Shown here piece after piece: positions 15,109-37,817 of a stretch of DNA of 64,000 nt. The position numbers were made by a program, and so were the translations under genes. This stretch comes from Halarcobacter bivalviorum (GTDB lineage Bacteria; Campylobacterota; Campylobacteria; Campylobacterales; Arcobacteraceae). Numbering within the stretch: position 1 is the stretch's first letter; each line of letters begins with the position of its first letter. The notes under the pieces were generated by a model. That model was given only the letters and a program-made list of their open reading frames with translations. It had not been told where the DNA came from and searched no databases. The stretch is taken from the NCBI RefSeq assembly GCF_003346815.1, contig NZ_CP031217.1:1426001-1490000 (forward strand), written 5' to 3'.

Positions 15109-16386
15109 GTGAACTCAATTCTTATTTCTGCTGTTTCATCAAATCAGGGAAAAACTATTCTTTCTACTGCATTACTATACTATTTTAAAAAGAGTGTAAG
15201 ACCTTTTAAAATTGGTCCAGACTATATTGATCCACAATTTCATGAAATAGTTTGCAACACAAAATCAATAAATCTTGATACCTTTATAATGAATGAGCCT
15301 CAAGTAAAATGGCTTTTTAATAAATACTCAAATAAAGAAGTTTCTATCTTAGAAGGAGTAATGGGCTTTTATGATGGTATGGATAAAGGTTGTTCAGCTT
15401 ATGATATAGGAAAATTATTAAATATTCCAACTATTTTACTTCTTGATGCTAGCGGTTCATATATAACTATTAGTGCTGTATTAAAAGGTCTTAAAACCTA
15501 TAAAGAAGATAACACTATAAAAGCTATTGTTTTAAATAAAGTCTCTTCAAAAATGCACTTTGAATTAATCAAAAAACAAATAGAACAAGACTTCCAAGGT
15601 AAAAATGAGATAAAAGTACTTGGCTGGATAAAAAAAGATTTACCAAGTTTAAGAGATACTCACTTAGGACTTGATTTAAAAGATGCAAAAAAAGAGGTCT
15701 TAGAAAATATCTCTAAAGAGGTTTTAGAGAATATTGATTTAGAAACTTTAAAAGAGATATCTTTATATGAAAAAGAATCTATATCAAACTATCCCTTTGA
15801 AGAGATAAAAAAGATAAACAAAAAAGCTACTGTTGTTTATGATAAAAACTTCTCCTTCTTATATCATGATAACTTAGAAACTTTAAAAGAGTTATTTAAT
15901 GAAGTAGAAGTTATTAGTTCAACTAAAGATGAAAAAATTAGCTCTAATAGTGACTTTGTATTTATACCAGGAGGTTATGTAGAAACAAAAGAAGCCTATG
16001 AAAGAGTTAAAAATTCACAAAACTTCAAAGCATCATTAATTGAACATATAAATAAAAACAAACATATCTATGCAGAGTGTGCAGGGCTTTTATATTTAAG
16101 TAAGGGTGTAGATAAAAAAGAGATGGCAAAAATCTTAGAAGTAAGCTTTTCACTTACCAATAAGAGAGTACGTCTTGGCTATTACTATAGTCAAAGTGGT
16201 TTAAAAGGTCATGCTTTTCACTATACAAAACCCCTTGATACTTCTTTGGGCTGTGATATTTTAAGTAAAAAGATTAACTCAAAAGGTGAAGTAGGAGCTT
16301 GGAAGAAAAAAAATGTATATGGAACTTATCTACATACAATGTTTAGAAATAATATAAATATATTAAAGGATTACTTTGGAATTTAA
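15109..16386 (+). CDS. cbiA: cobyrinic acid a,c-diamide synthase
   Basis: 425 aa, GTG start with GAGGT 6 bases upstream. The N-terminal ATPase part has SSNQGKTILST (10-20), and IGPDYIDPQFHE follows. The C-terminal amidotransferase part has VFIPGGYVE and the nucleophile in YAECAGLLYLS, with Ala where many homologues have Gly after Cys. It amidates carboxylates a and c of cob(II)yrinate. First gene of the rightward operon; the stop region overlaps cbiC by 11 bp. Also called cobB in aerobic-pathway naming. Confidence 0.94.
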   Translation: MNSILISAVSSNQGKTILSTALLYYFKKSVRPFKIGPDYIDPQFHEIVCNTKSINLDTFIMNEPQVKWLFNKYSNKEVSILEGVMGFYDGMDKGCSAYDIGKLLNIPTILLLDASGSYITISAVLKGLKTYKEDNTIKAIVLNKVSSKMHFELIKKQIEQDFQGKNEIKVLGWIKKDLPSLRDTHLGLDLKDAKKEVLENISKEVLENIDLETLKEISLYEKESISNYPFEEIKKINKKATVVYDKNFSFLYHDNLETLKELFNEVEVISSTKDEKISSNSDFVFIPGGYVETKEAYERVKNSQNFKASLIEHINKNKHIYAECAGLLYLSKGVDKKEMAKILEVSFSLTNKRVRLGYYYSQSGLKGHAFHYTKPLDTSLGCDILSKKINSKGEVGAWKKKNVYGTYLHTMFRNNINILKDYFGI

Positions 16387-17086
16387 ACTAGAACAACCAC
16401 CAATAAATATTGGTGCTGATATTTCAAATAAATCATTTGAAATGATTAGTGAAGAATTAAAAGATTATAAAAAAATAAATGAGTTTGATGAAGCACAACA
16501 AGAGGTAATAAGTAGACTTATTCATACTACTACTTGTTTTGATGAAGTATTAAACAATATCTACTTTTCAAAAGATGCAATTAAAAAGGTGCAAAAACTA
16601 CTATTAAACAAAGCAAAGATAATAGTTGATGTAAATATGATAAAAGTTGGACTTAGTGACTTTTATTTAAAGCAGTATGAAAATGAAGTTGTATGTTATA
16701 TCAACGAACCATTTACATATGAAATGGCAGAAAAAAACAAAACAACAAGAAGTTATGCAGCTGTAGTTGAGGCTATTAAAAAACATAAAGATGAGCCTTT
16801 AGTACTTGCATGTGGAAATGCCCCTACTTTTATCTATGCTGCAATTAATACGTTAATAGAGCAAAAAGTAGATTTAAACAATGTTGCTTTACTACTATTT
16901 CCAGTTGGCTTTGTAAATGTTGTTGAATCAAAAGCTTATGGTAGAAAGTTCTGTGACCATTTTGATGTAGCAGGGATTATTATGGAAGGAAGATTTGGAA
17001 GTTCTACTATGACAGTAGCAACTCTTCATGCCATCTATAAGCTAATCAAAGATTATGATAAAGATGAGAAATATAATGGAAAATAA
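16376..17086 (+). CDS. cbiC: cobalt-precorrin-8 methylmutase
   Basis: 236 aa. The catalytic His is in SRLIHTTTCFD (about 46-56); the core VVDVNMIKVGLS and GNAPTFIYAAI and the end GRFGSSTMTVATLHAIYKL are family features. It moves the C11 methyl to C12 to give cobyrinate. Start is TTG at 16376, chosen because AAAGGA lies 5 bases upstream; the gene begins inside cbiA. An ATG-started version would lose the conserved N-terminus. Confidence 0.92.
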   Translation: MEFKLEQPPINIGADISNKSFEMISEELKDYKKINEFDEAQQEVISRLIHTTTCFDEVLNNIYFSKDAIKKVQKLLLNKAKIIVDVNMIKVGLSDFYLKQYENEVVCYINEPFTYEMAEKNKTTRSYAAVVEAIKKHKDEPLVLACGNAPTFIYAAINTLIEQKVDLNNVALLLFPVGFVNVVESKAYGRKFCDHFDVAGIIMEGRFGSSTMTVATLHAIYKLIKDYDKDEKYNGK

Positions 17087-17546
17087 AAAAGAAGTACTTT
17101 ACAACACAATGGGTAGTGTTGTAGCAGATGGTTTTACTTGTAAACCAAAACAGTTTGATGCAAATAAACCTATTATGCACTTTAAAACTCAACTTTTTTT
17201 ATGTGATGATGAAAGATGTTCAAAGGCTCACAAAGGAAAAGATGTTGCAGCTACTTTAAGAGAAGTTATAAAAGAGTTAAATCTATCAAAGGGTGAAGAG
17301 AGAATCAAAGTTGTAAGAACTGGTTGTTTTGGAGCTTGTAGATTTAGATCTGTTGCTAATATTTATGAAAATACACAAAGAAATGGATATTTGGAAAATA
17401 ATGCTATTTGGCTTAAAAATGTTCATCAGTATGATAAAGAAAAGTGGGTAAAATTATTTAAAGCATTAAGCAATAATGAAAAACTTGACATGGCTGAATT
17501 TAAAATAGTTCCTATGTCAGAAATGGACACATACAAAAATGATTAA
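17076..17546 (+). CDS. thioredoxin-like [2Fe-2S] ferredoxin in the cobalamin operon
   Basis: About 156 aa. Four cysteines are arranged as in thioredoxin-fold [2Fe-2S] proteins: two in FLCDDERCSKAHKGKD and two in RTGCFGACRFRS. The start is taken as ATG 17076 (MENKKEV), which overlaps the cbiC stop; in-frame ATGs at 17055 and 17064 are alternatives. Its end overlaps cobA by 8 bp. It may feed electrons to a reductive or deoxygenation-free step of corrin ring synthesis, or to corrin adenosylation; this is inferred from position only. Related CbiW/CbiX Fe-S proteins occur in some anaerobic clusters. Confidence 0.75.
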   Translation: MENKKEVLYNTMGSVVADGFTCKPKQFDANKPIMHFKTQLFLCDDERCSKAHKGKDVAATLREVIKELNLSKGEERIKVVRTGCFGACRFRSVANIYENTQRNGYLENNAIWLKNVHQYDKEKWVKLFKALSNNEKLDMAEFKIVPMSEMDTYKND

Positions 17547-18273
17547 AAAAATATATTTAGTTGGTGCAGGACCTGGAGAGTTAGATTTACTTACTCTAAA
17601 AGCTGTAAAGATAATAGAACAAGCAGATGTAATTTTATATGATGCCTTAGTAAATGAAGAGGTTTTCCAGTTCTGTAAAGAAGATTGTCTAAAAGTTAAT
17701 GTAGGAAAAAGAAAAGGTAAACACCTAAAACAACAAGAAGAGATAAATGAGCTTTTAGTTGAGTATGCAAAAACCCATGAAGTTGTTGTAAGACTAAAAG
17801 GTGGAACTCCTTTTGTTTTTGGTCGTGGATATGAAGAAGTTAGAGCTATAAAAGAAGCTGGCTTTGATGTAGAGATAGTATCAGGAGTAAGTTCAACAAC
17901 TTCTGTACCAGAAAGCTTTATGCTACCACTTGTAGATAGAAAATTCAATGACTCATATAGAACTATTACAGGACATGATATTGATGTTTTTAAAAGCATT
18001 GTTAAATCATACCATGATAGAGAAAACCTAATTATTACAATGGGTGTTCACAATATTAAAAATATCGTTGAGTATCTTCTAAGTATTGATTTTCCAAAAG
18101 ACTTACCAATAGCAGTATTAAGTAAGGGAACAACAAATGATTCTTCACAAAAAATATTTACCCTTGATGAGGTAAACAAGCAAAATGAAGAGTTTTTTGA
18201 AGAGTTAAAAAAACTTACTCCAGCGATACTATTTATTGGAAGAACAATTCACGCAATGAAAGAGATTCAATAA
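17539..18273 (+). CDS. cobA: uroporphyrinogen-III C-methyltransferase
   Basis: 244 aa tetrapyrrole methylase. VGAGPGELDLLTLKA (8-22) and VVRLKGGTPFVFGRG (about 85-99) are the SUMT signatures, and RTITGHD follows in the middle. Many SUMTs read GGDPFVFGRG; here Asp is Thr, and the later AGIPLTHR-like segment is strongly changed (SFMLPLVDRKF). It should make precorrin-2 for corrin (and perhaps sirohaem) synthesis. It overlaps the ferredoxin gene and is followed after 6 bp by cbiD. Confidence 0.85.
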   Translation: MIKKIYLVGAGPGELDLLTLKAVKIIEQADVILYDALVNEEVFQFCKEDCLKVNVGKRKGKHLKQQEEINELLVEYAKTHEVVVRLKGGTPFVFGRGYEEVRAIKEAGFDVEIVSGVSSTTSVPESFMLPLVDRKFNDSYRTITGHDIDVFKSIVKSYHDRENLIITMGVHNIKNIVEYLLSIDFPKDLPIAVLSKGTTNDSSQKIFTLDEVNKQNEEFFEELKKLTPAILFIGRTIHAMKEIQ

Positions 18274-18279
18274 TAGCTT

Positions 18280-19305
18280 ATGTCTGAAAAAAAAGTTTTA
18301 AGAAAAGGTTATACAACAGGAACTCACACAGTTGCTGCATTTAGGTCTTGTTTAGATACATTTTTAGTTACAAATTCTCAAACAACAACTAAAACAAATA
18401 AAATAGACAATGATGATTTAGATGTAACAAAAGGGTGTGAAATAGTTGTATGCCTAGATTTTGATATAGAAAACTTTTTATTAAATCCAACTTTTCAAAA
18501 ACCTCAAATTTTTTCTTGTGGAACAAATAGTTTAGAAATATATGCTGGTCTTGGTGTGGGAGTAGTAACAAAAAAGGGACTAAAAATACAAGCCCCCTAT
18601 CCTGCTATAAACCCTGCTCCATTAGAAGCTATGCAAGAGTATTTTGAAATAAAAACAAAAAATAAAGAAGATTTACATTTAAAATGTTGTGTAAGCGTTA
18701 CAAATGGTCAAGAAATAGCCAAACAAACAGCAAACTCAAAAGTTGGAGTACTTGAAGGTATCTCAATACTTGGAACAACAGGAATTGTAAAACCTGTATC
18801 AAGTTCAGCGTATATAGACTCAGTAAAAACTGAAATAGAATTTGCTATACAAAATAACTATGAAACCATCTATTTTACCCTTGGAAACTCTGCTTTTAAA
18901 GTAGCTTGTTCTAAAGCAGATGAAGAGGCAATCATAGAAATAGGAAATTTTGTTTATGATTCAGTTGAACTTGCAACAAAACAAAATGCAAAAGAAGTAA
19001 TCTTTTTGTGTGGAATAGGAAAGATGACAAAGGTTTATCAAGGCTTTAAAAATACCCACAATAGATTTGGAGTAATTGACTTTACAAAACTTCAATTAGA
19101 CATAAAAGAGAACCTAGGCTATGAAGTTGATATTGAAGCAACTTTAACAGTAAAAGGTATATCCCAAGAGCTTGAAAAAGTGGGATTACTTGATGCTTTT
19201 TATGAAATGATTACAAAAAAAGCAAACAAACAAATAAAACAATGGTTTAAAACATCAAATGTAAAAGCCATAATATTAGAACAAAAAGAGGTGTTAGGAT
19301 GGTAA
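18280..19305 (+). CDS. cbiD: cobalt-precorrin-5B C1-methyltransferase
   Basis: 341 aa. The N-terminal LRKGYTTGTHTVAAFRS is the CbiD entry motif, followed by SVTNGQEIAKQTANSKVGV and GILGTTGIVKPVS-like segments. CbiD is unique to the anaerobic route and methylates C1 after the acetaldehyde-releasing step of CbiG. It is 6 bp after cobA and 4 bp before cbiET. Confidence 0.93.
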   Translation: MSEKKVLRKGYTTGTHTVAAFRSCLDTFLVTNSQTTTKTNKIDNDDLDVTKGCEIVVCLDFDIENFLLNPTFQKPQIFSCGTNSLEIYAGLGVGVVTKKGLKIQAPYPAINPAPLEAMQEYFEIKTKNKEDLHLKCCVSVTNGQEIAKQTANSKVGVLEGISILGTTGIVKPVSSSAYIDSVKTEIEFAIQNNYETIYFTLGNSAFKVACSKADEEAIIEIGNFVYDSVELATKQNAKEVIFLCGIGKMTKVYQGFKNTHNRFGVIDFTKLQLDIKENLGYEVDIEATLTVKGISQELEKVGLLDAFYEMITKKANKQIKQWFKTSNVKAIILEQKEVLGW

Positions 19306-19309
19306 AAAC

Positions 19310-20485
19310 ATGGTAACAATAGCTGGTAATGGTATGGGAGATTATACCTTTACAAATTTAGACTTTGATATTAGCAGGTTTGATAAGATTATCTGTGATT
19401 CAAACTTCAAAGAAGAGGCTTCAAATATTCTAAAACTAAAATATAAAGAAGCAAAAGAGTATCTTTTAGAAAACTATGACAAAGAAGAGATTTTATATGT
19501 AGTTACTGGTTCGCCTCTATTTTTTTCGGCTGGAACAATTATTGCTAAAAACTTGCCAAAAGACAGAGTGAAAATCGTAAATAACACATCTTCTAAGACT
19601 TATATGTGCGAGAAACTTTTTATTAGTGAAACTGAAATTGATGTAGTTTCTTTACATGGAAGAGTTGATTTTGATTTACAAAACTTTTTACAAAATAAAT
19701 ACACATTTGTACTTTGTGATAAGTTTACAATAGCAAGATTAAAATCTGCCCTTTCTTTTTTCAAAGCTAAAAGTATAACTACAACTATAGGTTATAAGCT
19801 AGGATTTGTAGATGAAAAAATAGAAGAGATAAATTTACTTCAGTTTGATGAAAAATCTCTTGATTTATCTCAACCTTTTGTATTACTTATTAAAAAAGAG
19901 TTCGAATCTAAAAATATCATTAGTGAAGATGTAGAGTTTGAAACTGAGCGAGGTATGATTACAAAAAAGTATAAAAGACAACTTACTTTACAAAACCTTG
20001 ATTTAGAACCAAACAATCTTTTATGGGATATTGGTGCAGGAAGTGGTTCTTGTGCAATAGAAGCATACAAAAGATACAAGGTTAAAACAACACTTTTTGA
20101 AAAAAATGAAACAAGAGTAGAGTTTATAAAACATAATCTAACAAATCATTATGTAGTAAATACAAAACTACTAGTTGGTGAAGCTCAAGAACACTTTAAC
20201 AGCTTAGAAGAAATACCACAAAGAATATTTGTAGGTGGTGGTGGAGTTGAAGTTATAAAACAACTTCCAAAGCTTTATGAAAAGTTGGACAAAAAAGGAA
20301 TTATGCTTATAAATGCAATTACTTTAAAACATCTAAACCTAATGTTAACTGTATTAAATGAAGCAAGTATAGAGTATGAAATTCACTCAATCTCCCTTAC
20401 AACTTATAAAGGAAAACTTGATTTAGTAGAACCTGAGAGACAACTATTTCAAATAAAAATAAAAAAACAAGAAGAGGAAAACTGA
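19310..20485 (+). CDS. cbiET: fused precorrin-6B C5,15-methyltransferase/decarboxylase CbiET
   Basis: 391 aa. The N-terminal half (about 1-195) is the tetrapyrrole methylase CbiE (MVTIAGNGMGD, then VVTGSPLFFSAGT). The C-terminal half (about 200-390) is the Rossmann methyltransferase/decarboxylase CbiT with the SAM loop LLWDIGAGSGSCAIEAY. The fusion matches CobL architecture. It adds methyls at C5 and C15 and decarboxylates the C12 acetate. The TGA overlaps the cbiF ATG. Confidence 0.93.
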   Translation: MVTIAGNGMGDYTFTNLDFDISRFDKIICDSNFKEEASNILKLKYKEAKEYLLENYDKEEILYVVTGSPLFFSAGTIIAKNLPKDRVKIVNNTSSKTYMCEKLFISETEIDVVSLHGRVDFDLQNFLQNKYTFVLCDKFTIARLKSALSFFKAKSITTTIGYKLGFVDEKIEEINLLQFDEKSLDLSQPFVLLIKKEFESKNIISEDVEFETERGMITKKYKRQLTLQNLDLEPNNLLWDIGAGSGSCAIEAYKRYKVKTTLFEKNETRVEFIKHNLTNHYVVNTKLLVGEAQEHFNSLEEIPQRIFVGGGGVEVIKQLPKLYEKLDKKGIMLINAITLKHLNLMLTVLNEASIEYEIHSISLTTYKGKLDLVEPERQLFQIKIKKQEEEN

Positions 20486-21228
20486 TGGTATATTTTATAG
20501 GTGCTGGTCCAGGTGACCCAGACTTAGTAACAGTAAAAGCACAAAAGATACTTCAAAAAGCTGATGTAGTTTTATATACAGGTTCACTTGTACCCAAAGA
20601 AGTTCTTTCTTGGTGTAAAGATGAGGCTATCATAGAAGACTCTCAAGGAATGAAATATCCAGAGATATTTGCTTTTTTAGAAAAATACAAAGATAAAGTA
20701 ATAGCAAGAGTTCATACAGGGGACCCATCTATTTATTCGACTATTGCAAAGCAAATAGAATTCTTACAAGAGCAAAATATAAAATATGAAGTTATACCAG
20801 GTATCACGGCAGCTTTTGGTGCTGCTGCTAGTCTTGGGATAGAATACACTATTCCAGGAGTTTCTCAAACAATTATTTTATCTCGTGTTGAAGGAAAAAC
20901 TCCAAACCCTGAAAAATTAGAGAATATACTTGCTTGTAAAAACTCATCTTTAGTATTTTATCTATCAATTTTACTTCTTAAAAAATTAAAGAAAAAAGCT
21001 CTTGAAATGGGATATTCACCAGATACTCCTTGTTGGGTAGTTGAAAAAGCCACTTGGAAAGAAGAACAAATTTTCAAAGGAACAATTTCTGATATTGAAA
21101 ATCAAGTTTCACATATAAATGGTGTAGCTTTAATTCTATTTGGAGACTTTCTAAAGCAAGAAGAGACAGAGGAATCACATCTTTATGTTAAACCACTTGT
21201 AAAAGAGTTAAAGGGAAAAAATGAGTAA
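20485..21228 (+). CDS. cbiF: cobalt-precorrin-4 C11-methyltransferase
   Basis: 247 aa. FIGAGPGDPDLVTVKAQ (4-20), VLYTGSLVP, RVHTGDPSIYSTI and VIPGITAAFGAAASLG are the CbiF/CobM motifs. All expected SAM and substrate loops are intact. It methylates C11. It overlaps cbiET by one base and cbiG by 8 bases. Confidence 0.94.
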   Translation: MVYFIGAGPGDPDLVTVKAQKILQKADVVLYTGSLVPKEVLSWCKDEAIIEDSQGMKYPEIFAFLEKYKDKVIARVHTGDPSIYSTIAKQIEFLQEQNIKYEVIPGITAAFGAAASLGIEYTIPGVSQTIILSRVEGKTPNPEKLENILACKNSSLVFYLSILLLKKLKKKALEMGYSPDTPCWVVEKATWKEEQIFKGTISDIENQVSHINGVALILFGDFLKQEETEESHLYVKPLVKELKGKNE

Positions 21229-22237
21229 ATTAAAAATAGCTCTTGTCTCTATAAATCAACCAAGCCTTGACTCAGCTTCAAGATTAGTAGACTATTTAAA
21301 AGATTATGAAGTAGTAATTTATGGAAAAAAAGATTTAGAACACTCTTTAAACAACTTTAAAACTTATGAAAAAATAGATACTGTTTTAGAAGATGGTTGG
21401 AAAAAATATGATGCAATAATTTGTATCTTAGCTATGGGAATTGTTGTTAGAAAGATTGCACCTCTACTTGAAAGCAAAGCAACAGACCCAGCTATTATAG
21501 TTATGAGTATGGATTTAACAAAAATCATTCCACTTCTAAGTGGGCATATTGGTGGAGCAAATGAATTAAGTGAAATTATTGCTTCAAGATTACCAAACTG
21601 CATGAACTTTGTATCAACAGCAACAGACCAAACAAATACTTTTGCTTTTGATATGTTTGCAAAGAAAAACAGTTTTGAAATAGAAAACCTAAAATGTTTA
21701 GCAAAAATCTCAAACTCCCTTCTAAACAAAAAAGAAGTAGAAGTTAAAACTTATGAGAGTATTTTTGAAACAATTTCTAATAAAACAAATCTAAAAAGAG
21801 TAGATGAATCATCAAATGAGCTTTGCGTAAATATAACTCCATTTTCAGATGAGAATTTAACCTTAAAACCTAAAGTATATTTAGGTATTGGTTGTAATAG
21901 AGGAACTTCTTTTGAAGATATTGAAGAAGCTTTTTTTTGGTTTTTAAAAAAGTATGCTCTAAAGAAAGAGCAAATAGAAAACATAGCTTCCTTTGAAGCA
22001 AAAGCAGATGAAAAAGGACTTTTAGAGTTTGCAAAAAAATACAGTTTTGATATTAAATTTTATAATGAAAAAGAGATAAATTCCCTTGAAAAAGAGTTTA
22101 GTCCTTCACAAGCTACAAAGTTTTTTGGACTAAAAGGAGTGGCAGAGCCCTCTTCTATTTTGATTTCAAAATATAAAGAGTTAATAATTAAAAAAGAAGT
22201 TATCTTCAAAAAAATCACAATTGCAGCAGCAGTATAA
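21221..22237 (+). CDS. cbiG: cobalt-precorrin-5A hydrolase
   Basis: 338 aa with the three CbiG parts: an N-terminal domain with ILAMGIVVRKIAPLL, a central domain with PLLSGHIGGANELSE, and a C-terminal domain with LGIGCNRGTSFEDIEEAF. CbiG opens the delta-lactone of cobalt-precorrin-5A and releases acetaldehyde, a step found only in the anaerobic pathway. It starts inside the end of cbiF. Confidence 0.93.
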   Translation: MSKLKIALVSINQPSLDSASRLVDYLKDYEVVIYGKKDLEHSLNNFKTYEKIDTVLEDGWKKYDAIICILAMGIVVRKIAPLLESKATDPAIIVMSMDLTKIIPLLSGHIGGANELSEIIASRLPNCMNFVSTATDQTNTFAFDMFAKKNSFEIENLKCLAKISNSLLNKKEVEVKTYESIFETISNKTNLKRVDESSNELCVNITPFSDENLTLKPKVYLGIGCNRGTSFEDIEEAFFWFLKKYALKKEQIENIASFEAKADEKGLLEFAKKYSFDIKFYNEKEINSLEKEFSPSQATKFFGLKGVAEPSSILISKYKELIIKKEVIFKKITIAAAV

Positions 22238-22251
22238 AAAAGGAAAATAAA

Positions 22252-23043
22252 ATGGCAAAAAAATTATATATAGTTAGTTCAGGAGCTGGTGGAACATCAT
22301 ATATCACACCAGAAGCAAGAAAAGCTTTAGAAACTTGCGAAGTTGTAGTTTCATATAGTAAATATGCAAGAGAATTAAAAGAGTTAATTGAAGGAAAAGA
22401 GCTATTTACATCTGGAATGACACATGAAATAGAGAGATGTAACCAAGCAATTCAATATGCAAGTGAAGGAAAAACAACTTGTATTGTTTCAAATGGAGAT
22501 GCAAATGTTTATGGAATGGCTACTTTAATTGTAGAAATTATAGATGAAAAAAACCTATGGGATGAAATCGAACTTATCTCACTTCCTGGAGTTACTTCAT
22601 TCTTGGCAGCAGCAGCTAAAGTTGGTGCTCCTGTATCACAAGATTTTTCTATTATCTCTTTATCAGATAGGCTTACAGATATAGATTTAATTGATAAAAG
22701 AGTAAAAGCAGCACTTGATTGTGACTTTGTTTTAGGTATCTATAATCCAAAATCTAAAAAGAGAATTCTTCCTTATCAAAATTTCTTAAGAGCTTTAGAA
22801 AATGGATATCAAGATAGAATAGCAATTATTGCTTCACATGTAGGGAGAGATGAAAAAGAGAAAATCACTATAACTACTGCTCAAGATTTAATAGACCAAG
22901 ATATTGAGCATCCAGCTGTTTCTATGTCAACACTTATTATAATTTGCAATTCTAATTCAAAACTAACTAAAAATGGAAAAGTTTTAACACCAAGAGGGTA
23001 TTTAAATAAATATGAACTTGATGGCGAACTAAAAAATAAATAA
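22252..23043 (+). CDS. cbiH: cobalt-precorrin-3 C17-methyltransferase
   Basis: 263 aa tetrapyrrole methylase. YIVSSGAGGTSYITPEARKA near the start is a variant of the usual VGxGPG loop; TCIVSNGDANVYGMA and SLPGVTSFLAAAAKVGAP and FVLGIYNPKSKKR are typical of CbiH/CobJ. It methylates C17 with ring contraction. A ribosome site (AAGGAAAA) precedes the ATG, 14 bp after cbiG. Confidence 0.92.
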   Translation: MAKKLYIVSSGAGGTSYITPEARKALETCEVVVSYSKYARELKELIEGKELFTSGMTHEIERCNQAIQYASEGKTTCIVSNGDANVYGMATLIVEIIDEKNLWDEIELISLPGVTSFLAAAAKVGAPVSQDFSIISLSDRLTDIDLIDKRVKAALDCDFVLGIYNPKSKKRILPYQNFLRALENGYQDRIAIIASHVGRDEKEKITITTAQDLIDQDIEHPAVSMSTLIIICNSNSKLTKNGKVLTPRGYLNKYELDGELKNK

Positions 23044-23060
23044 GTTAAAAGAGGCAATAA

Positions 23061-23810
23061 ATGCAAATAGCGATTTTATCTGATATTCATTCAAATATTT
23101 ATGCTTTACAAGAAGTTATAAAAGATATTAAAAATAGAGATATTGAAGTAGTTTTAAATCTTGGAGATATGTTTTATGGACCAATAGAACCAAAAGCTAC
23201 ATATGAAATAATAAGAGAAAACAAATTTATAAATATTTGTGGAAATCAGGATAGAGAAATCCTTGAAGCAAGTTTAGATCAACTAGAAAAAAACCCTACT
23301 TTACGATATACCTATGAAAACTTAGGAGAAGAGGTTTTATATTGGATTCAAGACTTACAATTTGAAAAAATCATTGGTGGAACATATTATATGATTCATG
23401 GAACTTACTTTGATGATAGCCAATATCTATTAGAAGATATTTCAAATGGCGAAGTAACGTTAAGAAGAGATGAAGAGATTATAAAACTAACAGATAATAT
23501 TGAAACACCTTTTATCTTTTGTGGGCACTCTCATTTGCCTAGAGTTCATAAGTTAAACACTGGACAAATAGTTATTAATCCAGGTTCTGTAGGACTTCAA
23601 GCATATGAGGATGAGTTTCCCATAAAACACAAGATGCAAAACCATACTCCAGATGCTGCATATACCATTTTAACAGTTGAAGAGAATCAATATAGTATTG
23701 AACAAGTAAGAGTTGCTTATGATTATGAAAAAGCAGCAAAAAAAGCAGAAGATAATAGAAGACCTGATTGGGCATATGCCTTAAGAACTGGTAAGGTTTT
23801 AGAAAAGTAA
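23061..23810 (+). CDS. calcineurin-like metallophosphoesterase in the cobalamin operon
   Basis: 249 aa. The dinuclear-metal motifs are complete: DIHSN (8-12), GDMF, GNQD, and FCGHSHLPRVH (about 155-165). It belongs with the YfcE/MJ0936-like phosphodiesterases. It lies between cbiH (17 bp) and cobD (1-bp overlap), so it is an operon member. A dedicated phosphatase CobC is already encoded at 7756, so its substrate is unclear; a nucleotide-loop phosphate intermediate is one possibility. Confidence 0.85.
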   Translation: MQIAILSDIHSNIYALQEVIKDIKNRDIEVVLNLGDMFYGPIEPKATYEIIRENKFINICGNQDREILEASLDQLEKNPTLRYTYENLGEEVLYWIQDLQFEKIIGGTYYMIHGTYFDDSQYLLEDISNGEVTLRRDEEIIKLTDNIETPFIFCGHSHLPRVHKLNTGQIVINPGSVGLQAYEDEFPIKHKMQNHTPDAAYTILTVEENQYSIEQVRVAYDYEKAAKKAEDNRRPDWAYALRTGKVLEK

Positions 23811-24832
23811 TGAAAGAATTTCAGCATGGTGGAGATGTAAAAAGTTTTGCCCGTAAAGCAAAATGTCAAGTTAAAGAGGTAATTGATTTATCTTCAAATA
23901 TAAACTTTTTAAAACCAAAACTTGATATTGATTTTAATAGTTTGGATATATCTTCATATCCAAATTATGACAAACTTTATAAAGCTATTTCAAAACATTA
24001 CAACGTAATGAAATCACAAATTGAACTATACAATGGTGGTAGTTCTGCTATTTTTAAACTTTTTGAAAATCTAAAACTAAAACATTGTACTATTTACTCT
24101 CCTGCATACCTAGAATACAAGAAAGCTGCACAAAATTTTGGATATGAAATTGAATTAATTAATAGATTTAAAGATATGAAAAAAGAGGTAAAAAAAGGTT
24201 CTTTTGTAATATTTGTAAACCCTTCAACCCCTGATGCAAAATGTTATAACATAAATGAACTACTAAATTTTTGGATAAAAAAAGAGTGTACTATTTTAAT
24301 AGATGAAAGCTTTTTAGAGTTTACAGATTATGAATCAACTACAAAATATTTAGGAAAGTATGACAAACTTTATATTCTAAAATCTATGACAAAGTTTTAT
24401 TCATCTGCTGGGATTAGAGTTGGTACTATTATCTCATCAAAAGAGAATATCATAAAATTAAGAGAAAAAGAACCTATGTGGAAAATCTCTACTTTCGATA
24501 TGAACTATTTAATAGAGGTTTTAAAGTATAAAAAGTTCTACAAAAAAGCAAAAAAAAGAAATAAAGAGAATTTAAAACTACTATGCTCTACTCTTGAAAA
24601 ACATTCCTTTATCAAAATGATACATCAAAGTGAAGCTAACTATATTTTAGTAAAACTAAAAGATATAAAAGCAAAAGAACTTCAAGAAAAATTATTACCT
24701 TATAAAATTATGATAAGAGATTGTTCTAACTTTGATTTTTTAGGAAAGAAGCATATAAGAATTGCTGTAAAAAGTAAAAAAAGTATTGAACTTCTAAATA
24801 AAGCCTTTGAAGATATAGCAAAATGTATTTAG
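23810..24832 (+). CDS. cobD: L-threonine-O-3-phosphate decarboxylase
   Basis: 340 aa, fold-type I PLP enzyme of the histidinol-phosphate aminotransferase-like group. The PLP lysine is in LKSMTKFYSSAGIRVG (about 190-205); LYNGGSSAIFKLF and VNPSTPDAKCY mark the cofactor site. N-terminal HGGDV is typical of CobD. It yields aminopropanol phosphate, the linker between ring and nucleotide loop. Its start overlaps the phosphoesterase and its end overlaps cbiB by 10 bp, the enzyme that uses its product. Confidence 0.9.
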   Translation: MKEFQHGGDVKSFARKAKCQVKEVIDLSSNINFLKPKLDIDFNSLDISSYPNYDKLYKAISKHYNVMKSQIELYNGGSSAIFKLFENLKLKHCTIYSPAYLEYKKAAQNFGYEIELINRFKDMKKEVKKGSFVIFVNPSTPDAKCYNINELLNFWIKKECTILIDESFLEFTDYESTTKYLGKYDKLYILKSMTKFYSSAGIRVGTIISSKENIIKLREKEPMWKISTFDMNYLIEVLKYKKFYKKAKKRNKENLKLLCSTLEKHSFIKMIHQSEANYILVKLKDIKAKELQEKLLPYKIMIRDCSNFDFLGKKHIRIAVKSKKSIELLNKAFEDIAKCI

Positions 24833-25701
24833 AACTATTATTTTTTGCATATCTAATTGATTTTATCTTTGGAGAGTTTCATCTAATCAAAACTCTTTAC
24901 CATCCAATTATTCTTTTAGGGAATTACATAAAATGGTTTGAAAAAAAGTTTTATAAAGATACCATTTTTAGAGGATTCTTATTGACTATTTCTTTATTGT
25001 CTCTTGTTTTTATAGTTACTTTTTTATTAAGTAAAATTGATAATATATATTTTCAAGCCCTACTTTGCTCTTTTACTATCTCTTCTAAAATGTTATATGA
25101 TAGTGTAAAAGAAGTAATAAGCTCAGATAATCCCAAATATGCTATTTCTATGCTTGTTAGTCGAGATACCAAGGAAATGAGCGAGAGTGATATAAATAAA
25201 GCTGCTATTGAAACTTATGCTGAAAACCTAAGTGATGGGGTTATAGCTCCAATGTTTTATTTAGCTTTCTTTGGTATTGTTGGAGCTTTTATTTATAAAG
25301 CAATTAATACCTTAGATTCAATGGTTGGATATAGAAATGAAAAATATGAAAACTTTGGTAAGTTTGCAGCAAAACTTGATGATGTAGCAAACTATATTCC
25401 CGCAAGAATAACTGCTCTTTTAATTTCACTTCTATTTTTTAGTAAAACTGCTTTTCAAAAGTTTTATACCTATGGAAAAAAACACGAAAGTCCAAATGCA
25501 GGTCATCCAATTTCAGCTATGGCATTAGCTTTAAATATCTCTTTAGGAGGACCTACGTCTTATTTTGGAAAAGTTAAAGAAAAGCCTTATTTTGGAGAAG
25601 GAAAAAAAGAGATAAAAAAAGAGGATGTAAAAAAAGCAATTTCAATAAAATTAAAAATGGATATTTTAATACTTGCTTCTTTACTTTTGCTAATAGTATA
25701 A
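24823..25701 (+). CDS. cbiB: adenosylcobinamide-phosphate synthase
   Basis: 292 aa membrane protein. HPIILLGNYIKWFEK near 26, ETYAENLSDGVIAPMFYLA near 130, NTLDSMVGYRNEKYENFG and SPNAGHPISAMALAL are CbiB signatures. It attaches aminopropanol phosphate to cobyric acid. Last gene of the rightward operon, convergent with the methyltransferase gene, with a hairpin on the shared end. Confidence 0.94.
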   Translation: MYLELLFFAYLIDFIFGEFHLIKTLYHPIILLGNYIKWFEKKFYKDTIFRGFLLTISLLSLVFIVTFLLSKIDNIYFQALLCSFTISSKMLYDSVKEVISSDNPKYAISMLVSRDTKEMSESDINKAAIETYAENLSDGVIAPMFYLAFFGIVGAFIYKAINTLDSMVGYRNEKYENFGKFAAKLDDVANYIPARITALLISLLFFSKTAFQKFYTYGKKHESPNAGHPISAMALALNISLGGPTSYFGKVKEKPYFGEGKKEIKKEDVKKAISIKLKMDILILASLLLLIV

Positions 25702-26769: not shown

Positions 26770-26839
26770 TTATTATTCTTTATTAGTTTCTATGTGCGAA
26801 TTATAGGTAATATTTATTAAATAACAGATAAAAATTATT

Positions 26840-29317: not shown

Positions 29318-29337
29318 AATCTTTTTGTCATTTTATT

Positions 29338-33267: not shown

Positions 33268-33681
33268 ATGAAAGTAGTAACAGGTGTAGTTGGAAACGAC
33301 ATCCACGTTGTAGCAAACAGACTTATAGAACTTTCACTGCAAGCAAGAGGCTTTGAGGTATTTAACTTAGGTGTTAATACTTACTTAGAAGAGTTTGTTG
33401 ATGCAGTGATTGAAACAAATGCTGACATTCTTTTAATCTCTTCATTAAATGGAGAAGCAGAAGGTTGGTGTAGAGAAGTGAAAATTTTAAAAGCAAAATA
33501 CGGAAATCTTCTTGATAATGTAGTTTTTATGATAGGTGGAAACTTAGTTGTAGGAACAGGAAGTGCAGAAGATATTGTTCCAAGATTTAAAAATTATGGA
33601 TTTGACTTAGTATTTCATCAGGTTGATTTAAATACAGGCTTAGATGAATTAGAAAAATTCATGAAGGAAAGAGATAAATGA
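33268..33681 (+). CDS. glmS: glutamate mutase small subunit (B12-binding)
   Basis: 137 aa, cobalamin-binding flavodoxin-like fold. The base-off/His-on motif is present with D11 and H13 in GNDIHVVANR, but the family Gly three residues after His is Ala. SSLNGEAEG and VFMIGGNLVVGTG are the other corrin-binding loops. With GlmE it converts L-glutamate to (2S,3S)-3-methylaspartate using adenosylcobalamin. It overlaps glmE by 4 bp. Also named mutS in Clostridium. Confidence 0.92.
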   Translation: MKVVTGVVGNDIHVVANRLIELSLQARGFEVFNLGVNTYLEEFVDAVIETNADILLISSLNGEAEGWCREVKILKAKYGNLLDNVVFMIGGNLVVGTGSAEDIVPRFKNYGFDLVFHQVDLNTGLDELEKFMKERDK

Positions 33682-35042
33682 GTTTATTACAAGAAGAAAG
33701 AAATATCATCTTAAACAATGAATATGTTGATAATTTTGATTTCGCTGAAGTTGAAGAGTTTGTAAAAAATGCTTCAAAAGATCTTTTTATCTCTTATAAT
33801 TTTAAAACAAAAGATAAAATGCTGGTTCAACCAAGAGGTGGTTTCCCAACATACGATAAAATGTTTGCTCTTTATGAGTTCTTTGATAAAGCAAATGTAG
33901 ATGTTTTACCTTGTACTATTGACTCAAATACAAGACTTAATGATTATGCAACTGCAAAAAAGATGTTAAGACTTAGTGAAGAGAACGAAGTTGATATGTT
34001 AAATGGTTATCCTTTAATTAACCATGGATATAGAACATCAAGAAAAATGATGACACATTTTAATAAACCTATTTCATTAAGACATGGTACTCCTGATGCA
34101 AGACTACTTATTGAAACAGCAATTGCTTCTGGTATCTTTGAAATTGAAGGTGGACCAATTACATATTTACTACCTTATTCTAAAAACTTTCCTTTAGATA
34201 AAGCTTTCCTTTACTGGAAGTATGTAGAGAGAGTTTGTGCTGAATACTCAAAACTAAATGAACCAATCAATAGAGAATCATTTGGTCCACTAACAGCAAC
34301 ACTTGTTCCTCCTTGTATTACTATTGTAATCCAACTTTTAGAGATGTTATTATCACTTGAAGAAGGTGTTAAATCATTCTCTGTATCATTTTCTCAAACT
34401 GGTTCAATGAATCAAGATATTGTAATGGGAGCAGTACTTAGAAAATTAGCAAAACACTATTCAGAAGAGATTGGTGTTACTGATGCTGATATTCACTTAG
34501 TTTATCACCAATGGATGGGTGCATTCCCTATGGATCAAAACTATGCTTCTCAACTTATAAATATGAGTACAGTAATTGCTGCTATGGTTGGTGCAAATAA
34601 AATTATTACAAAAACAAAACAAGAAGCTTCTGGAATTCCTACAAAAGAGGCAAATGCAGAAACAGTTGCAAATACACAATATACTCTTAGAATTTTAAAT
34701 GGATTACCAAATATTGTTGATAAAGAAGAAGAGGAAATTTTAACAGCTGAAGTTATGGCTATTATGGAAGCTGTATTTAATGACCCCGCTGATACTCTTT
34801 GGAGAAAAGTATTTAACTCAATTAAAAATGGAACAATTGATGTACCTTTCTCTCCTCATATTATAAATAACAATGAGATGATTACAGTAAGAGATAGAAA
34901 TAAGAATATTAGAATCATAAAAAGAGGGAAAGTTCCAATTCCAGATAGATGTTTTGAATATGAAAAAAATCAATGTGATTTAAATAAAGATACAACATCT
35001 ATTGTAAATGATATTATCCATGATATAGGAATTATGCAATGA
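33678..35042 (+). CDS. glmE: glutamate mutase catalytic subunit
   Basis: 454 aa, slightly shorter than the 483-aa Clostridium protein. TIM-barrel signatures: RGGFPTYDKMFAL near 52, DSNTRLNDYATAKK near 95, NGYPLINHGYRTSR near 118, LRHGTPDARLL near 142 (Arg for substrate carboxylate), INRESFGPLTATLVPP near 200. It is the radical-carrying subunit. Translationally coupled to glmS and glmL by 4-bp overlaps. No methylaspartate ammonia-lyase or mesaconase follows. Confidence 0.93.
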   Translation: MSLLQEERNIILNNEYVDNFDFAEVEEFVKNASKDLFISYNFKTKDKMLVQPRGGFPTYDKMFALYEFFDKANVDVLPCTIDSNTRLNDYATAKKMLRLSEENEVDMLNGYPLINHGYRTSRKMMTHFNKPISLRHGTPDARLLIETAIASGIFEIEGGPITYLLPYSKNFPLDKAFLYWKYVERVCAEYSKLNEPINRESFGPLTATLVPPCITIVIQLLEMLLSLEEGVKSFSVSFSQTGSMNQDIVMGAVLRKLAKHYSEEIGVTDADIHLVYHQWMGAFPMDQNYASQLINMSTVIAAMVGANKIITKTKQEASGIPTKEANAETVANTQYTLRILNGLPNIVDKEEEEILTAEVMAIMEAVFNDPADTLWRKVFNSIKNGTIDVPFSPHIINNNEMITVRDRNKNIRIIKRGKVPIPDRCFEYEKNQCDLNKDTTSIVNDIIHDIGIMQ

Positions 35043-36229
35043 GTAAATTAGAAAACAAACTATTAATTGATGTAGGAAGTACATATTTTAAATTATGTAC
35101 AAAAGATAGTGTACAACAACACTTTAGAGATTTTAACAAAGATATTTATGATGATTTAACTTATAAATGTGGTGAAATTATCAAAAACTATGAAAAAGAA
35201 AATATTCATATTTGTTCATCAGCAAATGGAGGATTAAGTACTCTTATTATTGGTATTTCTAACTCTTTTTCTTTAAAATATGCAACAAATATCGCTTTTA
35301 ATTCTGGTATTAATATTATTGATACAGTCTTATACAAAGATATTGAGACAACTTCTATTCCAAGTGATTTAATTGATGTTGTAATAGTTGTAGGAGGAAT
35401 TGACTCTGTTTCAAATATCTTTGATGAGAAACTATTTAAATTTTTAAAAGAGTTAAACTACTCAAATATTGTTTATGTAGGAAGTAAAAAAGATGCTCCT
35501 TATTTACAAAAAAATATTGAAAACTTAGTTATCTTACCAAATATAATCAATGATAAACTTCATGTGGAAGAAGAGAATCTAAAAGAGTATTTAACAAATC
35601 TTTATCAAGCTGATATTATGGGGAAAGAAGATATTAAACACCTGTATGATATTACCTCAAATCAAATATTTTCAACTCCATATATAGTAAATAAAACTCT
35701 ACCTATGATTGACTCAAAATTTAAAGTTGCAGATCCATATATCTTAATTGATATCGGTGGAGCAACTACAGATATTCACTACTCAAAAGATTTAGTTGAT
35801 GAGAATATGGTAACCCAAAATGAGTATGATAGACTTGTATTTAAAAAACTTGGTGTTTATAAATCAAAAGAGTCTTTAATCTTTGCTGCAAAAAACAATG
35901 AGTTTGTATATGAACTATTAGCTCACTTAAAAGTTACAGAAAATATTTTTGATGAATCAAGTGAAAAATCAACAAGAGTTTTAATGCAACTTGCTATCTT
36001 CTTAGTACTTTGTAAAGTATCAGCATATAGACAAGCCTATGTAAATTTAAAACTTCTTGCACTTAACTCAGTAGTTTTTACTGGTGGTATAACAAAAGTA
36101 TTAAAACAAGAAGAAATAGAAGATATAGTAACATTCTTCTATAAAAAAATATTAAATTCAAGCCATAATCCTACAATTGTAATGGATAATAATTATGATG
36201 TATGGACACTTGGAATGTTAGAAAAATAA
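35039..36229 (+). CDS. glmL: GlmL/MutL glutamate mutase accessory ATPase
   Basis: 396 aa ASKHA-fold protein. Phosphate loops IDVGSTYFKLC (about 10-20) and ILIDIGGATTDIHYSK (about 232-247), VFTGGITKVL near 345. MutL proteins accompany B12 mutases and are thought to protect or reactivate them. The standard gene order S-L-E is changed here to S-E-L. It ends 13 bp before the ligase gene, which has its own ribosome site (AAAAAGGAG). Confidence 0.88.
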   Translation: MSKLENKLLIDVGSTYFKLCTKDSVQQHFRDFNKDIYDDLTYKCGEIIKNYEKENIHICSSANGGLSTLIIGISNSFSLKYATNIAFNSGINIIDTVLYKDIETTSIPSDLIDVVIVVGGIDSVSNIFDEKLFKFLKELNYSNIVYVGSKKDAPYLQKNIENLVILPNIINDKLHVEEENLKEYLTNLYQADIMGKEDIKHLYDITSNQIFSTPYIVNKTLPMIDSKFKVADPYILIDIGGATTDIHYSKDLVDENMVTQNEYDRLVFKKLGVYKSKESLIFAAKNNEFVYELLAHLKVTENIFDESSEKSTRVLMQLAIFLVLCKVSAYRQAYVNLKLLALNSVVFTGGITKVLKQEEIEDIVTFFYKKILNSSHNPTIVMDNNYDVWTLGMLEK

Positions 36230-36242
36230 AAAAGGAGCTACT

Positions 36243-37817
36243 ATGTCTATTAACTGTATTAGAACACTTATTGAAGATGCAAATGTTTCTCATCCAGAAA
36301 AAATTGCAATAAAGTTCAATGAAAAAGAGATAAATTATAAAGACCTACTAAAAAAAGTTAATCAAATAGCCTTTTACCTTAGTGAACTTAATTTACCAAA
36401 AGGTAGTAGAATTGGTATCTACTCAACAAAAAGTATAGAACAAGTAATTGCTATTTTAGGTATTTTATCAACGGATTATGTATTAGTTCCTCTTACAAGA
36501 CTACTTAAACCAGAGCAAGTAGAGTATATAATTAAAGATTGTGATATTAAATGTATTATTACAGATAGATTAAAACTAGAATCAATTGAAGAGATTAATT
36601 TTGATGGACAAATTATTTCTTATGAAACTACACATAAAGATATTGCTTCATTTGAAGAGATTTTTAAATATTATAATAAACCTTACTCTTGTACAATAAA
36701 TGGACATGATAATGCTGTAATTACATATTCATTTGGATTAACAGGAACACCTAAAGGTATTGTAATTTCACATAGAAATCTTATTGATTCAGCAAGGGTA
36801 GTATCTTCATATTTAGATTTAAAAGAAGATGATGTTATCTCAGGGACACTTATTTTTAATCTTGATTATGGATTAAATCAAATTTTTTGTTCTTTATATA
36901 AAAGAGCAACTTTAGCTTTACATAGATTTATTCTTGCTGGTGATTTCTTTAACCATTTAATAAATGATGAAGTTACAGTAGTACCTTTAATGCCTATTAA
37001 TATCTCTTCAATGTTTGATGAAGATGAACACAAACTTCCTAGTGCTGACCTTTTAGCAAAGGTTAGAGTTCTTACTTCTTCAGGTGGTAATGTAACTCAT
37101 AAAATGTTAAATGATCTAGATAAGTACTTCCCTGATGCAAAATTTTATTCAATGCATGGATTAACAGAAGCTTTTAGGTCTACATATTTAGAACCATCAC
37201 AAATTTGGATAAGACCAGACTCAATTGGTAAGCCTATTCCAGATGTTGAACTTTATGTTCTTAATGAAGAAGGTAAAGAGTGTAAACCAAGAGAAATTGG
37301 TGAATTAATTCATAGAGGTGGATATATCTATAAAGGATATTGGAATGCTCCTGTTGAAACAAGTGAGCGATTTAAATCTATTCAAATCTTGAAAGATGTA
37401 ATTAACCTAGAGGGACAACTAACAGATGAAATAGTTGTAGCAACAGGGGATTATGTTTATAAAGATGAAGAGGGTTACTTCTATTTTGTTTCAAGACATG
37501 ATGATATGATCAAAACAAGAGGTTTTAGAGTAAGTCCTTTTGAGATTGAATCTGTAGTAGCTAAGAACTTTCCTATGGTTGAACAATGTGCTATTTTCTC
37601 AATTGCAAATGAAGAGATTGAAGAAGAGATTGTAATGGTTTATAGTGCAAGAAGTGAAATAGCTTCAAAAGAGATTGTTTTTGAGTTAAAAAAACATTTA
37701 GCTTCATATATGATTCCAAATAAAATAATTTATAAAAAATCTTTACCTTTAGTTCCTAGTGATAAAAGTAAAATAAACAAAGAAGAGCTTAAACAAGAGC
37801 TTTTAAAAGATAACTAA
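36243..37817 (+). CDS. AMP-forming acyl/aminoacyl ligase of the glutamate mutase operon
   Basis: 524 aa ANL-family enzyme. P-loop-like TYSFGLTGTPKG (161-172, Lys171 kept, usual first Ser-Gly changed to Phe-Gly), A5 motif HGLTEAFRSTYLEP (305-318), hinge segment ATGDYVYKDEEGYFYF (400-415) with Asp403, SRHDDMIKTRGFRVSPFE, and a C-terminal catalytic Lys in PSDKSKINKEEL (Lys510). The A5 segment resembles ligases reported with exosortase-A systems, from memory. It should adenylate a carboxylate; position suggests 3-methylaspartate or a derivative. No carrier protein is encoded nearby, so CoA or direct transfer are both open. Confidence 0.85.
   Translation: MSINCIRTLIEDANVSHPEKIAIKFNEKEINYKDLLKKVNQIAFYLSELNLPKGSRIGIYSTKSIEQVIAILGILSTDYVLVPLTRLLKPEQVEYIIKDCDIKCIITDRLKLESIEEINFDGQIISYETTHKDIASFEEIFKYYNKPYSCTINGHDNAVITYSFGLTGTPKGIVISHRNLIDSARVVSSYLDLKEDDVISGTLIFNLDYGLNQIFCSLYKRATLALHRFILAGDFFNHLINDEVTVVPLMPINISSMFDEDEHKLPSADLLAKVRVLTSSGGNVTHKMLNDLDKYFPDAKFYSMHGLTEAFRSTYLEPSQIWIRPDSIGKPIPDVELYVLNEEGKECKPREIGELIHRGGYIYKGYWNAPVETSERFKSIQILKDVINLEGQLTDEIVVATGDYVYKDEEGYFYFVSRHDDMIKTRGFRVSPFEIESVVAKNFPMVEQCAIFSIANEEIEEEIVMVYSARSEIASKEIVFELKKHLASYMIPNKIIYKKSLPLVPSDKSKINKEELKQELLKDN

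Follow-up and report, generated by a model that had tools for sequence, protein, structure and literature searches.

Glutamate mutase is known to serve in fermentation, in one haloarchaeal carbon cycle and in the making of some antibiotics. Here we describe an operon of Halarcobacter bivalviorum in which the genes of this B12-dependent enzyme, glmS, glmE and glmL, are followed by a gene for a ligase-like protein of the ANL fold. The operon lies in a stretch of 64,000 nucleotides (bases 1426001-1490000 of the genome; hereafter the window, whose first base is position 1 of the coordinates given for the operon and its surroundings). Sequence comparison across genomes indicates that GlmS, GlmE, GlmL, the ANL-fold protein and an RraA-like protein are a conserved, five-gene, B12-dependent set, and this set looks like an undescribed branch of amino-acid metabolism rather than fermentation.

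Several described systems are close to this one. The methylaspartate pathway of glutamate fermentation and the haloarchaeal methylaspartate cycle use the same mutase subunits, with a conserved active site. In vicenistatin biosynthesis in Streptomyces (VinH, VinI, VinN, VinL and VinO), excerpts of two reports describe a glutamate mutase that feeds an ANL enzyme, VinN, which reads and activates 3-methylaspartate as a beta-amino acid (PMC11284099, PMC11253843). The exosortase-A-associated set (TIGR03098, TIGR03099 and a PP-binding protein) contains the NCBIfam model that is closest to our ligase-like protein, and it sits in exopolysaccharide loci with a decarboxylase and a carrier. Lastly, a glutamate mutase route to 2-ketobutyrate is counted as one of nine known routes in the accessible part of PMC7476758.

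A mutase operon with a conserved active site

All four genes of the operon are on the + strand. glmS (33268..33681) encodes the B12-binding subunit of glutamate mutase, as read from the list of open reading frames (ORFs) and family models; glmE (33678..35042) encodes the catalytic subunit, by family model and structure match; glmL (35039..36229) encodes an ASKHA-type ATPase that is presumed from family models to be the chaperone or reactivase of the mutase; and the ligase gene (36243..37817) encodes an ANL-fold, ligase-like protein with a 3-methylaspartate-type pocket and altered ATP-using motifs. glmS and glmE overlap by 4 bp, as do glmE and glmL, and the gap between glmL and the ligase gene is 13 bp (ORF coordinates). 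An earlier note on this DNA had read the four genes as one tight operon, and both the ORF coordinates and the family models agree with it, down to the spacing. Its further claim, that the operon has its own promoter and terminator, has less support, from inspection only: a hairpin is visible over the ligase stop codon, but terminator scoring 3' of the ligase gene called none, and a sigma-70 scan of the 150-bp gap 5' of glmS returned no site on the + strand. The arrangement is not due to chance because it is conserved across phyla.

GlmS scores 157.7 bits against NF002612 (cut-off 110), and GlmE scores 393 bits against PF06368 and 379.2 bits against NCBIfam TIGR01503, slightly below the cut-off of 390.1. 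The H. bivalviorum genome (2.68 Mb, single contig) has one PF06368 match, and both GlmE and GlmS align with glutamate mutase chains of known structure (1ccw, 6h9e and others). GlmL matches PF13941 with 98.7 bits and reaches only 81.2 bits with the NCBIfam GlmL model, for which the cut-off is 475.

We next examined the conservation of functional residues, using GlmE proteins of at least 430 residues, GlmS of at least 120, GlmL of at least 370 and RraA-like proteins of at least 150 (the GlmE of locus L095 was missed by ORF picking and read separately). In GlmE, residues R53, R86, R135, E157, Y163, Y167 and K312 are invariant in 109/109 proteins; we take these seven positions to be the equivalents of the Clostridium cochlearium active site (the Arg claw, the Glu and the Tyr/Lys). 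The B12 motif of GlmS, DxHxxG-SxL-GG, has D, H, S, L and GG invariant in 102/102 proteins, while Ala takes the place of the final G of DxHxxG in every one of them, a constant deviation from the solved Clostridium chain. The phosphate motifs of GlmL (DxGST..K, DxGGxTTD and GG) are invariant in 117/117. Because the active-site residues are invariant, this mutase very likely converts glutamate to 3-methylaspartate, and we are confident, as far as sequence can tell, that the gene set includes an active mutase.

Distribution of the gene set

Among 104 Arcobacteraceae genomes, 60 carry glmE and 57 of these 60 also carry the ligase gene (E <= 1e-60), which is found in none of the 44 glmE-negative genomes. 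The three glmE genomes without a ligase are G043 and G073, each with a single short glmE fragment, and G053. In G053, a small genome, an NAD(P)H-hydrate repair gene stands directly after glmL, the place that the ligase gene occupies in 18 of the 19 other regions fetched from this family. A phylum-wide draw of 397 Campylobacterota genomes contains 57 with glmE, in six families. From the 34 glmE genomes outside the Arcobacteraceae we fetched 20 regions, and the ligase is present in all 20 (two are cut by contig ends), in the usual gene order except for L088, which has an insertion, and L087, in which the ligase gene is displaced and no glmL was seen.

The gene set extends beyond the Campylobacterota. 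In a scan of named genomes we kept the best 80 of 199 ligase relatives, which gives 81 loci with the window included. By record titles, 27 of these 80 are from Campylobacterota and 53 are from elsewhere: 51 are gammaproteobacterial (among them Colwellia, Thalassotalea, Neptuniibacter, Granulosicoccus, Reinekea, HTCC2143 and HTCC2148), and one Rhodothermales and one Desulfobulbaceae relative are from metagenome-assembled genomes, both on short contigs. ORFs for glmS, glmE and glmL are immediately 5' of the ligase gene in 63 of the 81 loci, and in seven more glmS is present though missed by ORF picking; in the other 11, where the sequence starts inside or shortly before the gene set, glmS was not seen. 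The ligase gene is directly 3' of glmL in most loci. In a tree of the ligases the 53 non-Campylobacterota proteins form one clade with a support of only 0.46.

A search of plasmids returned 30 records for GlmE, the best at about 40% identity, and 33 for the ligase (E <= 1e-60), the best at about 35% identity; none is a close relative. More distant plasmid loci have other neighbors. On a Methylobacter plasmid (L072:8886-15604), a GlmE-like ORF (31% identity) and a B12-binding protein are accompanied by asparagine synthetase A, a 505-residue ORF, an EamA transporter and an aminotransferase dependent on pyridoxal phosphate (PLP). On two Streptomyces plasmids (L075 and L099), glutamate mutase adjoins genes for aspartate kinase and aspartate-semialdehyde dehydrogenase, an arrangement that may point to a methyl-aspartate-semialdehyde branch.

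Among the open-licence PubMed Central papers listed on glutamate mutase with Arcobacter, Sulfurospirillum, marine genera, RraA and isoleucine topics, none gives an account of this gene set in its title or the opening of its abstract. The accessible parts of PMC12069332 and PMC10378866 bring up glutamate mutase in connection with marine or subsurface bacteria, but only the enzyme itself. The earlier note had called the product of this system "not described in this lineage"; we too found no description, but the system is not specific to the lineage, as it is also present in marine Gammaproteobacteria.

Methylaspartate fermentation and the methylaspartate cycle both begin with the mutase, and the operon could serve either of them if the remaining enzymes were encoded elsewhere in the genome. 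Such pairings exist: of four alphaproteobacterial plasmid loci that we examined, three combine glmS and glmE, and in two cases glmL as well, with genes for ammonia-lyase, CoA-transferase and CoA-ester lyase. The fourth, from Roseibium, has a mutase in the vicinity of an adenylation-domain gene and of an aromatic amino acid lyase. However, methylaspartate ammonia-lyase (PF07476) has no match in the H. bivalviorum genome and is above cut-off in 0/104 Arcobacteraceae genomes (one weak match, 21.5 bits, is in G072). No mesaconate genes were noticed among the neighbors read, not every one of which was annotated. The missing ammonia-lyase supports the earlier note in its reading of a glutamate mutase that acts outside the fermentation and mesaconate routes. 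A role in fermentation or in the cycle, which would call for an unrelated ammonia-lyase, is close to refuted and, to us, very improbable.

A 3-methylaspartate-type pocket in the ligase-like protein

Family models and structure matches place the ligase-like protein in the ANL fold. It scores 208.4 bits against PF00501, and its best NCBIfam model is TIGR03098 ("exosortase A system-associated" ligase), with 433 bits against a cut-off of 592.35; an Aureimonas member of that family scores 741.9. An AlphaFold2 model made with 30 close homologues has low confidence (mean predicted local distance difference test 65, predicted template modeling score 0.47), and with this low-confidence model Foldseek returned ANL structures at a root-mean-square deviation of about 16-24 A.

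We compared the pockets of 118 ligases with that of VinN (ligases of 480 residues or fewer were excluded, among them L082 and L088, which contig ends truncate). In the accessible parts of PMC11253843 and PMC11284099, the VinN pocket consists of D230, which holds the amino group; F231 and S299, which are bulkier than in GrsA and opposite the loop; and K330/R331 in the shortened loop. We mapped these positions by way of a VinN homologue from Streptomyces yangpuensis (L097) whose gene is accompanied by those for a PLP enzyme, a mutase and a polyketide synthase. The equivalents of D230, F231, S299 and R331 are D208, Y209, S280 and R312, and all four are invariant in 118/118 ligases; the position of K330 is Phe in 117 and Leu in one. 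The motif DYGLNQ that begins with the first of these residues (36864..36881, + strand, ligase codons 208-213) is nearly constant, with D208, Y209, G210, N212 and Q213 in all 118 and L211 in 117.

The short beta13-beta14 loop of the ligases has the same length as in the S. yangpuensis homologue, and this loop is also found in exosortase-A ligases. Two exosortase-A-type ligases that we compared have the loop and the Arg in common with our proteins, and have Ala and Thr at the positions of Tyr209 and Ser280. From these two members, the bulky Tyr and the Ser look to have been gained in the ligases of the gene set, convergently with VinN, and the loop does not. The residues of the pocket fit 3-methylaspartate, and we infer that the ANL protein binds 3-methylaspartate.

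Altered ATP-using motifs

The ligase family does not have the P-loop consensus of ANL adenylate-forming enzymes, which we take, with the help of reference sequences, as [YF]-[TS]-S-G-[ST]-T-G-x-P-K-G. In the window copy the P-loop reads YSFGLTGTPKG (36726..36758, + strand, ligase codons 162-172), where the canonical form is Y-T-S-G-[ST]-T-G-x-P-K-G. The change S164F is found in 117/118 ligases, at residue 166, the following Ser/Thr position, 103/118 have L, I, V or M, and the P-loop Lys is kept in 104/118. The catalytic Lys of motif A10, invariant in adenylating enzymes, is not invariant here either. In the A10 loop, where this residue is expected (37758..37781, + strand, ligase codons 506-513), position 510 is Lys in 60 of the 118 ligases, Gln in 35, Arg in 10 and another residue in 13, and 22 ligases, 20 of them from named genomes, have no Lys anywhere at 506-511. 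Lys510 is present in 46/65 Campylobacterota copies versus 14/53 other copies.

Other nucleotide-binding positions are kept. Asp403 of motif A7, Glu309 of motif A5 and Arg418 are invariant, and the hinge Lys424 is present in 117/118; we take Asp403, Arg418 and Glu309 to be the ribose, nucleotide and metal contacts, respectively. When all positions are ranked by conservation, those of the pocket come out on top, and in variability position 510 reaches the 85th percentile. This is consistent with a protein in which the binding of an amino acid, and perhaps of an adenosine moiety, has been kept without a dependence on making an adenylate. Adenylation is doubtful for the family because the P-loop Ser is Phe and the A10 Lys is not conserved, and it has probably been lost in most members.

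The earlier note suggested instead that 3-methylaspartate is activated for a small molecule, a peptide or a surface modification. In this reading the ligase would adenylate it and pass it to a carrier, CoA or an amine. This would be VinN-like chemistry, with the carrier (AcpP or another) encoded elsewhere. The VinN-type pocket, the invariant Asp403, Glu309 and Arg418 and the near-invariant Lys424 speak for this reading, the A10 Lys is present in the window copy and in most Campylobacterota copies, and relatives of the nearest known family stand with a decarboxylase and a carrier protein. Against activation are S164F and the loss of the A10 Lys in about half of the family, as well as the missing partners. 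No carrier protein was seen near the genes in 20 Arcobacteraceae regions, 20 wider Campylobacterota regions and the 81 loci, in which singleton neighbors were not all annotated; the gene neighborhoods bear out the conserved ligase but not a linked carrier. Only three carrier proteins are above cut-off in the H. bivalviorum genome and none is near the operon: the best match is read as acpP from its score, and two are beside ketosynthase-like genes. Nor was a VinO-type decarboxylase found beyond two TIGR03099 matches, a 402-residue ORF beside a chorismate mutase/prephenate dehydratase-like ORF and a 599-residue frame, which are read as lysA and speA, respectively. Taken together, we consider that the activation of 3-methylaspartate for a carrier or small molecule is doubtful, although the window copy itself has the Lys. 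The two small carriers beside ketosynthase-like genes (L005 and L006) are at about 205-219 kb of the H. bivalviorum contig (G000 C1), in a cluster that we presume may be of the aryl-polyene type.

A different role for the ANL protein would be that of a GlmL partner that protects or reactivates the mutase, binding an amino acid and an adenosine moiety (for example, 5'-deoxyadenosine) and not ATP. Positions presumed to contact adenosine and the amino acid are conserved, whereas those presumed to contact the triphosphate vary, and the gene, directly after glmL in most loci, never occurs without glmE in the 104 genomes. However, the ANL protein is missing from G053, in which the mutase and glmL are present, and we know of no reactivase with an ANL fold. 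We regard this role as unlikely.

A probable RraA-like partner of the mutase

Genomes with glmE also encode an RraA-like protein. Across the 397 Campylobacterota genomes, this protein (PF03737; E <= 1e-30) is present in 57/57 glmE-positive and 3/340 glmE-negative genomes. All 58 Arcobacteraceae genomes whose glmE exceeds a short fragment have it (E < 1e-40); G043 and G073, which have only such fragments, are counted as glmE-negative in the Fisher test for this family. In 60 of the 81 loci the gene is upstream of the mutase genes and oppositely oriented; it is immediately adjacent to them in 45 and within six genes in 58, and it is often divergent from glmS. In several genomes, including H. bivalviorum (C1:1199845), it is unlinked to the operon.

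The metal/catalytic R-D pair is present in 88/88 RraA-like proteins, at a place where E. coli RraA has R-Q, and the pattern [E/D]-x20-R-D is found in 85/88 (Glu in 69, Asp in 16); the starts of the other three are set too far upstream, which puts them outside the spacing test. According to PMC5065237, proteins of the RraA fold that have the metal motifs are regarded as class II pyruvate aldolases; the enzyme from P. putida is described as decarboxylating oxaloacetate as well. An ORF for an AspC/TyrB-type aminotransferase (NF006719, 571 bits in the one member scanned) is upstream in 21 loci, directly beside rraA in 18 of them.

In H. bivalviorum, rraA is the first gene of a run of four (L181:8845-14205; G000 C1 about 1199845-1205205) that continues with a ChaC-like gene, a TPR-like membrane protein gene and the gene for OvoA (ovothiol). 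rraA is with ovoA in 9 of 20 rraA regions fetched, 7 of the 9 with the ChaC-like and TPR-like genes and one of the 9 from a glmE-negative genome; OvoA was identified by a model match in the H. bivalviorum region and by similarity in the others. We rejected an ovothiol link as the main tie of rraA, as ovoA is in 79/104 genomes, with and without glmE, and is missing in several glmE-positive ones.

The RraA-like protein could still be a hitch-hiker or a regulator of RNA processing, in which case the pathway would end at 3-methylaspartate, which the ANL protein might, for instance, hold as an osmolyte or signal. The proteins do pass the general RNase E regulator RraA model NF006875 (138 and 141.8 bits; cut-off 136), the match to the enterobacterial RraA model being below cut-off, and rraA is in an ovoA cluster in nine Arcobacteraceae regions, one without glmE. 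However, the co-occurrence with glmE is nearly perfect and holds where the genes are unlinked, ovoA does not track glmE, and the R-D pair is kept in every protein. We therefore find a hitch-hiker improbable, and have good confidence that the RraA-like protein is a true partner of the mutase.

A proposed route from glutamate to 2-oxobutyrate

Based on these comparisons, we propose a route in which the gene set would act on glutamate. GlmS-GlmE with adenosylcobalamin would interconvert glutamate and (2S,3S)-3-methylaspartate, and GlmL would keep the mutase working. The ANL protein would bind 3-methylaspartate, probably without adenylating it in most members, and could serve as a binding, gating or accessory subunit, that is as a gate, a store or a partner of GlmL. 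An aspartate-type aminotransferase would convert 3-methylaspartate to 3-methyloxaloacetate, which the RraA-like protein would decarboxylate to 2-oxobutyrate. Glutamate would in this way yield, cheaply and with the help of B12, a C4 oxo acid that is usable for isoleucine or propionyl-CoA. What the comparisons show is the gene set, the conservation of the mutase active site, the pocket, the changes in the ATP motifs and the co-occurrence with rraA; we infer every reaction in this scheme, including the transamination, the substrate of the RraA-like protein and the end product. The whole route from glutamate through 3-methylaspartate and 3-methyloxaloacetate to 2-oxobutyrate, with an ANL protein that binds without activating, is in our view possible, though well short of probable. 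It is a tentative suggestion, too, that the ANL protein is a non-adenylating partner of glutamate mutase, binding 3-methylaspartate and adenosine in a pocket convergent with that of VinN, and that together with an RraA-like C-C lyase it makes up an undescribed B12-dependent branch from glutamate.

A number of observations weigh against this proposal. The H. bivalviorum ligase has Lys at both 508 and 510 in addition to the P-loop Lys, and so may still adenylate, and G053 has intact glmSEL and rraA with no ligase. The association between rraA and glmE in the 397 Campylobacterota genomes (Fisher p = 7e-66) is uncorrected for phylogeny, and the RraA-like protein is also present in 10/46 other Arcobacteraceae genomes, without glmE. 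Besides passing the general regulator model, most of the RraA-like proteins (69/88) have Glu where aldolases have Asp, and the protein could act on another oxo acid. The aminotransferase gene is convergent with rraA and confined to gammaproteobacterial loci (21/51). Finally, threonine dehydratase (IlvA) is present in 101/104 Arcobacteraceae genomes, including all 88 good genomes; it is near-universal, and therefore 2-oxobutyrate does not need the mutase route. For this reason, and as the two show no complementary distribution, we rejected the idea of a needed by-pass to isoleucine, though a cheaper second route is still possible. Citramalate synthase was rejected as an explanation as well, with CimA above cut-off in 0/104 genomes.

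If widespread among marine bacteria, a system of this kind would mean a further demand for B12 in ocean metabolism; according to PMC12069332, B12 synthesis is lacking in most marine Gammaproteobacteria. Automatic annotation hides the gene set under "methylaspartate mutase", "acyl-CoA ligase" and "ribonuclease E activity regulator RraA". With the proposal, the RraA-like proteins of glutamate-mutase genomes gain a testable metabolic role, and an ANL-fold protein whose pocket is seemingly kept and whose catalytic residue is lost in many members offers a natural test of what the fold does without ATP activation.

Genomic surroundings of the operon

The operon is downstream of a cobalamin biosynthesis cluster (15109..25701, + strand) and a BtuC-like permease, a linkage seen in the H. 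bivalviorum genome only. Seven ORFs of the cluster were scanned and match CobB/CbiA, CbiD, CbiE-CbiT, CbiF, CbiG, a CobD-type protein and CbiB, some of them below cut-offs; the cluster is a possible source of cofactor for the mutase. The transport region that follows (25702-31251) contains the BtuC-like permease (189.5 bits, cut-off 334) and, by reading, an ABC ATPase and a binding-protein-like ORF. A TonB receptor in the same region scores higher with a siderophore model (131.1) than with a B12 model (98.1). Between the cobalamin genes and the transport ORFs is a 355-residue "FlxJ family methyltransferase" ORF (483.9 bits, cut-off 560). An Rfam scan of the window found no cobalamin riboswitch over threshold; its sole match is a class A RNase P RNA at 61066-61392.

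Comparison with known systems

How the gene set differs from its closest relatives can be seen from the parts that each contains. The methylaspartate pathway and cycle differ from it in their methylaspartate ammonia-lyase, which is not above cut-off in any of the 104 Arcobacteraceae genomes. The glutamate mutase route to 2-ketobutyrate for isoleucine, known from biochemistry (PMC7476758), would likewise use a mutase, an aminotransferase and a decarboxylase, and among the open-licence papers listed on isoleucine/2-oxobutyrate and on RraA/ovothiol none gave a gene set for that route. Our set has an ANL-fold protein and GlmL in addition, in genomes where threonine dehydratase is also present.

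The RraA-like protein has the fold and length of RraA and the HMG-CHA aldolases (PF03737; 159 residues; 1q5x and 3c8o) as well as the R-D pair, and it also matches 3noj, an HMG/CHA aldolase-oxaloacetate decarboxylase (7.7e-7). It differs from the known proteins of this fold in its pair (R-Q in E. coli), in the Glu 21 residues before the Arg in 69/88 members, and in being co-inherited with glutamate mutase.

The exosortase-A-associated ligases share the TEAFRSTYLDP loop and the hinge with our ligase. Their pocket reads D-A-G-L-S-Q, compared to D-Y-G-L-N-Q, and the two that we compared have a canonical P-loop and A10 Lys, unlike the protein described here. In two exopolysaccharide loci, from Aureimonas and from Sinorhizobium meliloti pSymB (L073 and L074), an exosortase-A-type ligase, a PLP decarboxylase and a carrier gene make up the same parts list as VinN-VinO-VinL, which suggests that an amino acid is loaded on the carrier and then decarboxylated there.

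The vicenistatin system is the nearest in substrate. At the key positions of the pocket, the residues of VinN and of our ligase are identical or closely similar (D, Y/F, S and R). A linked carrier, a PLP decarboxylase and a polyketide synthase, all part of the Streptomyces system, were not seen with the operon described here; its ligase-like protein has an altered P-loop and A10 Lys, and in place of the vicenistatin partners it is accompanied by GlmL and an RraA-like protein.

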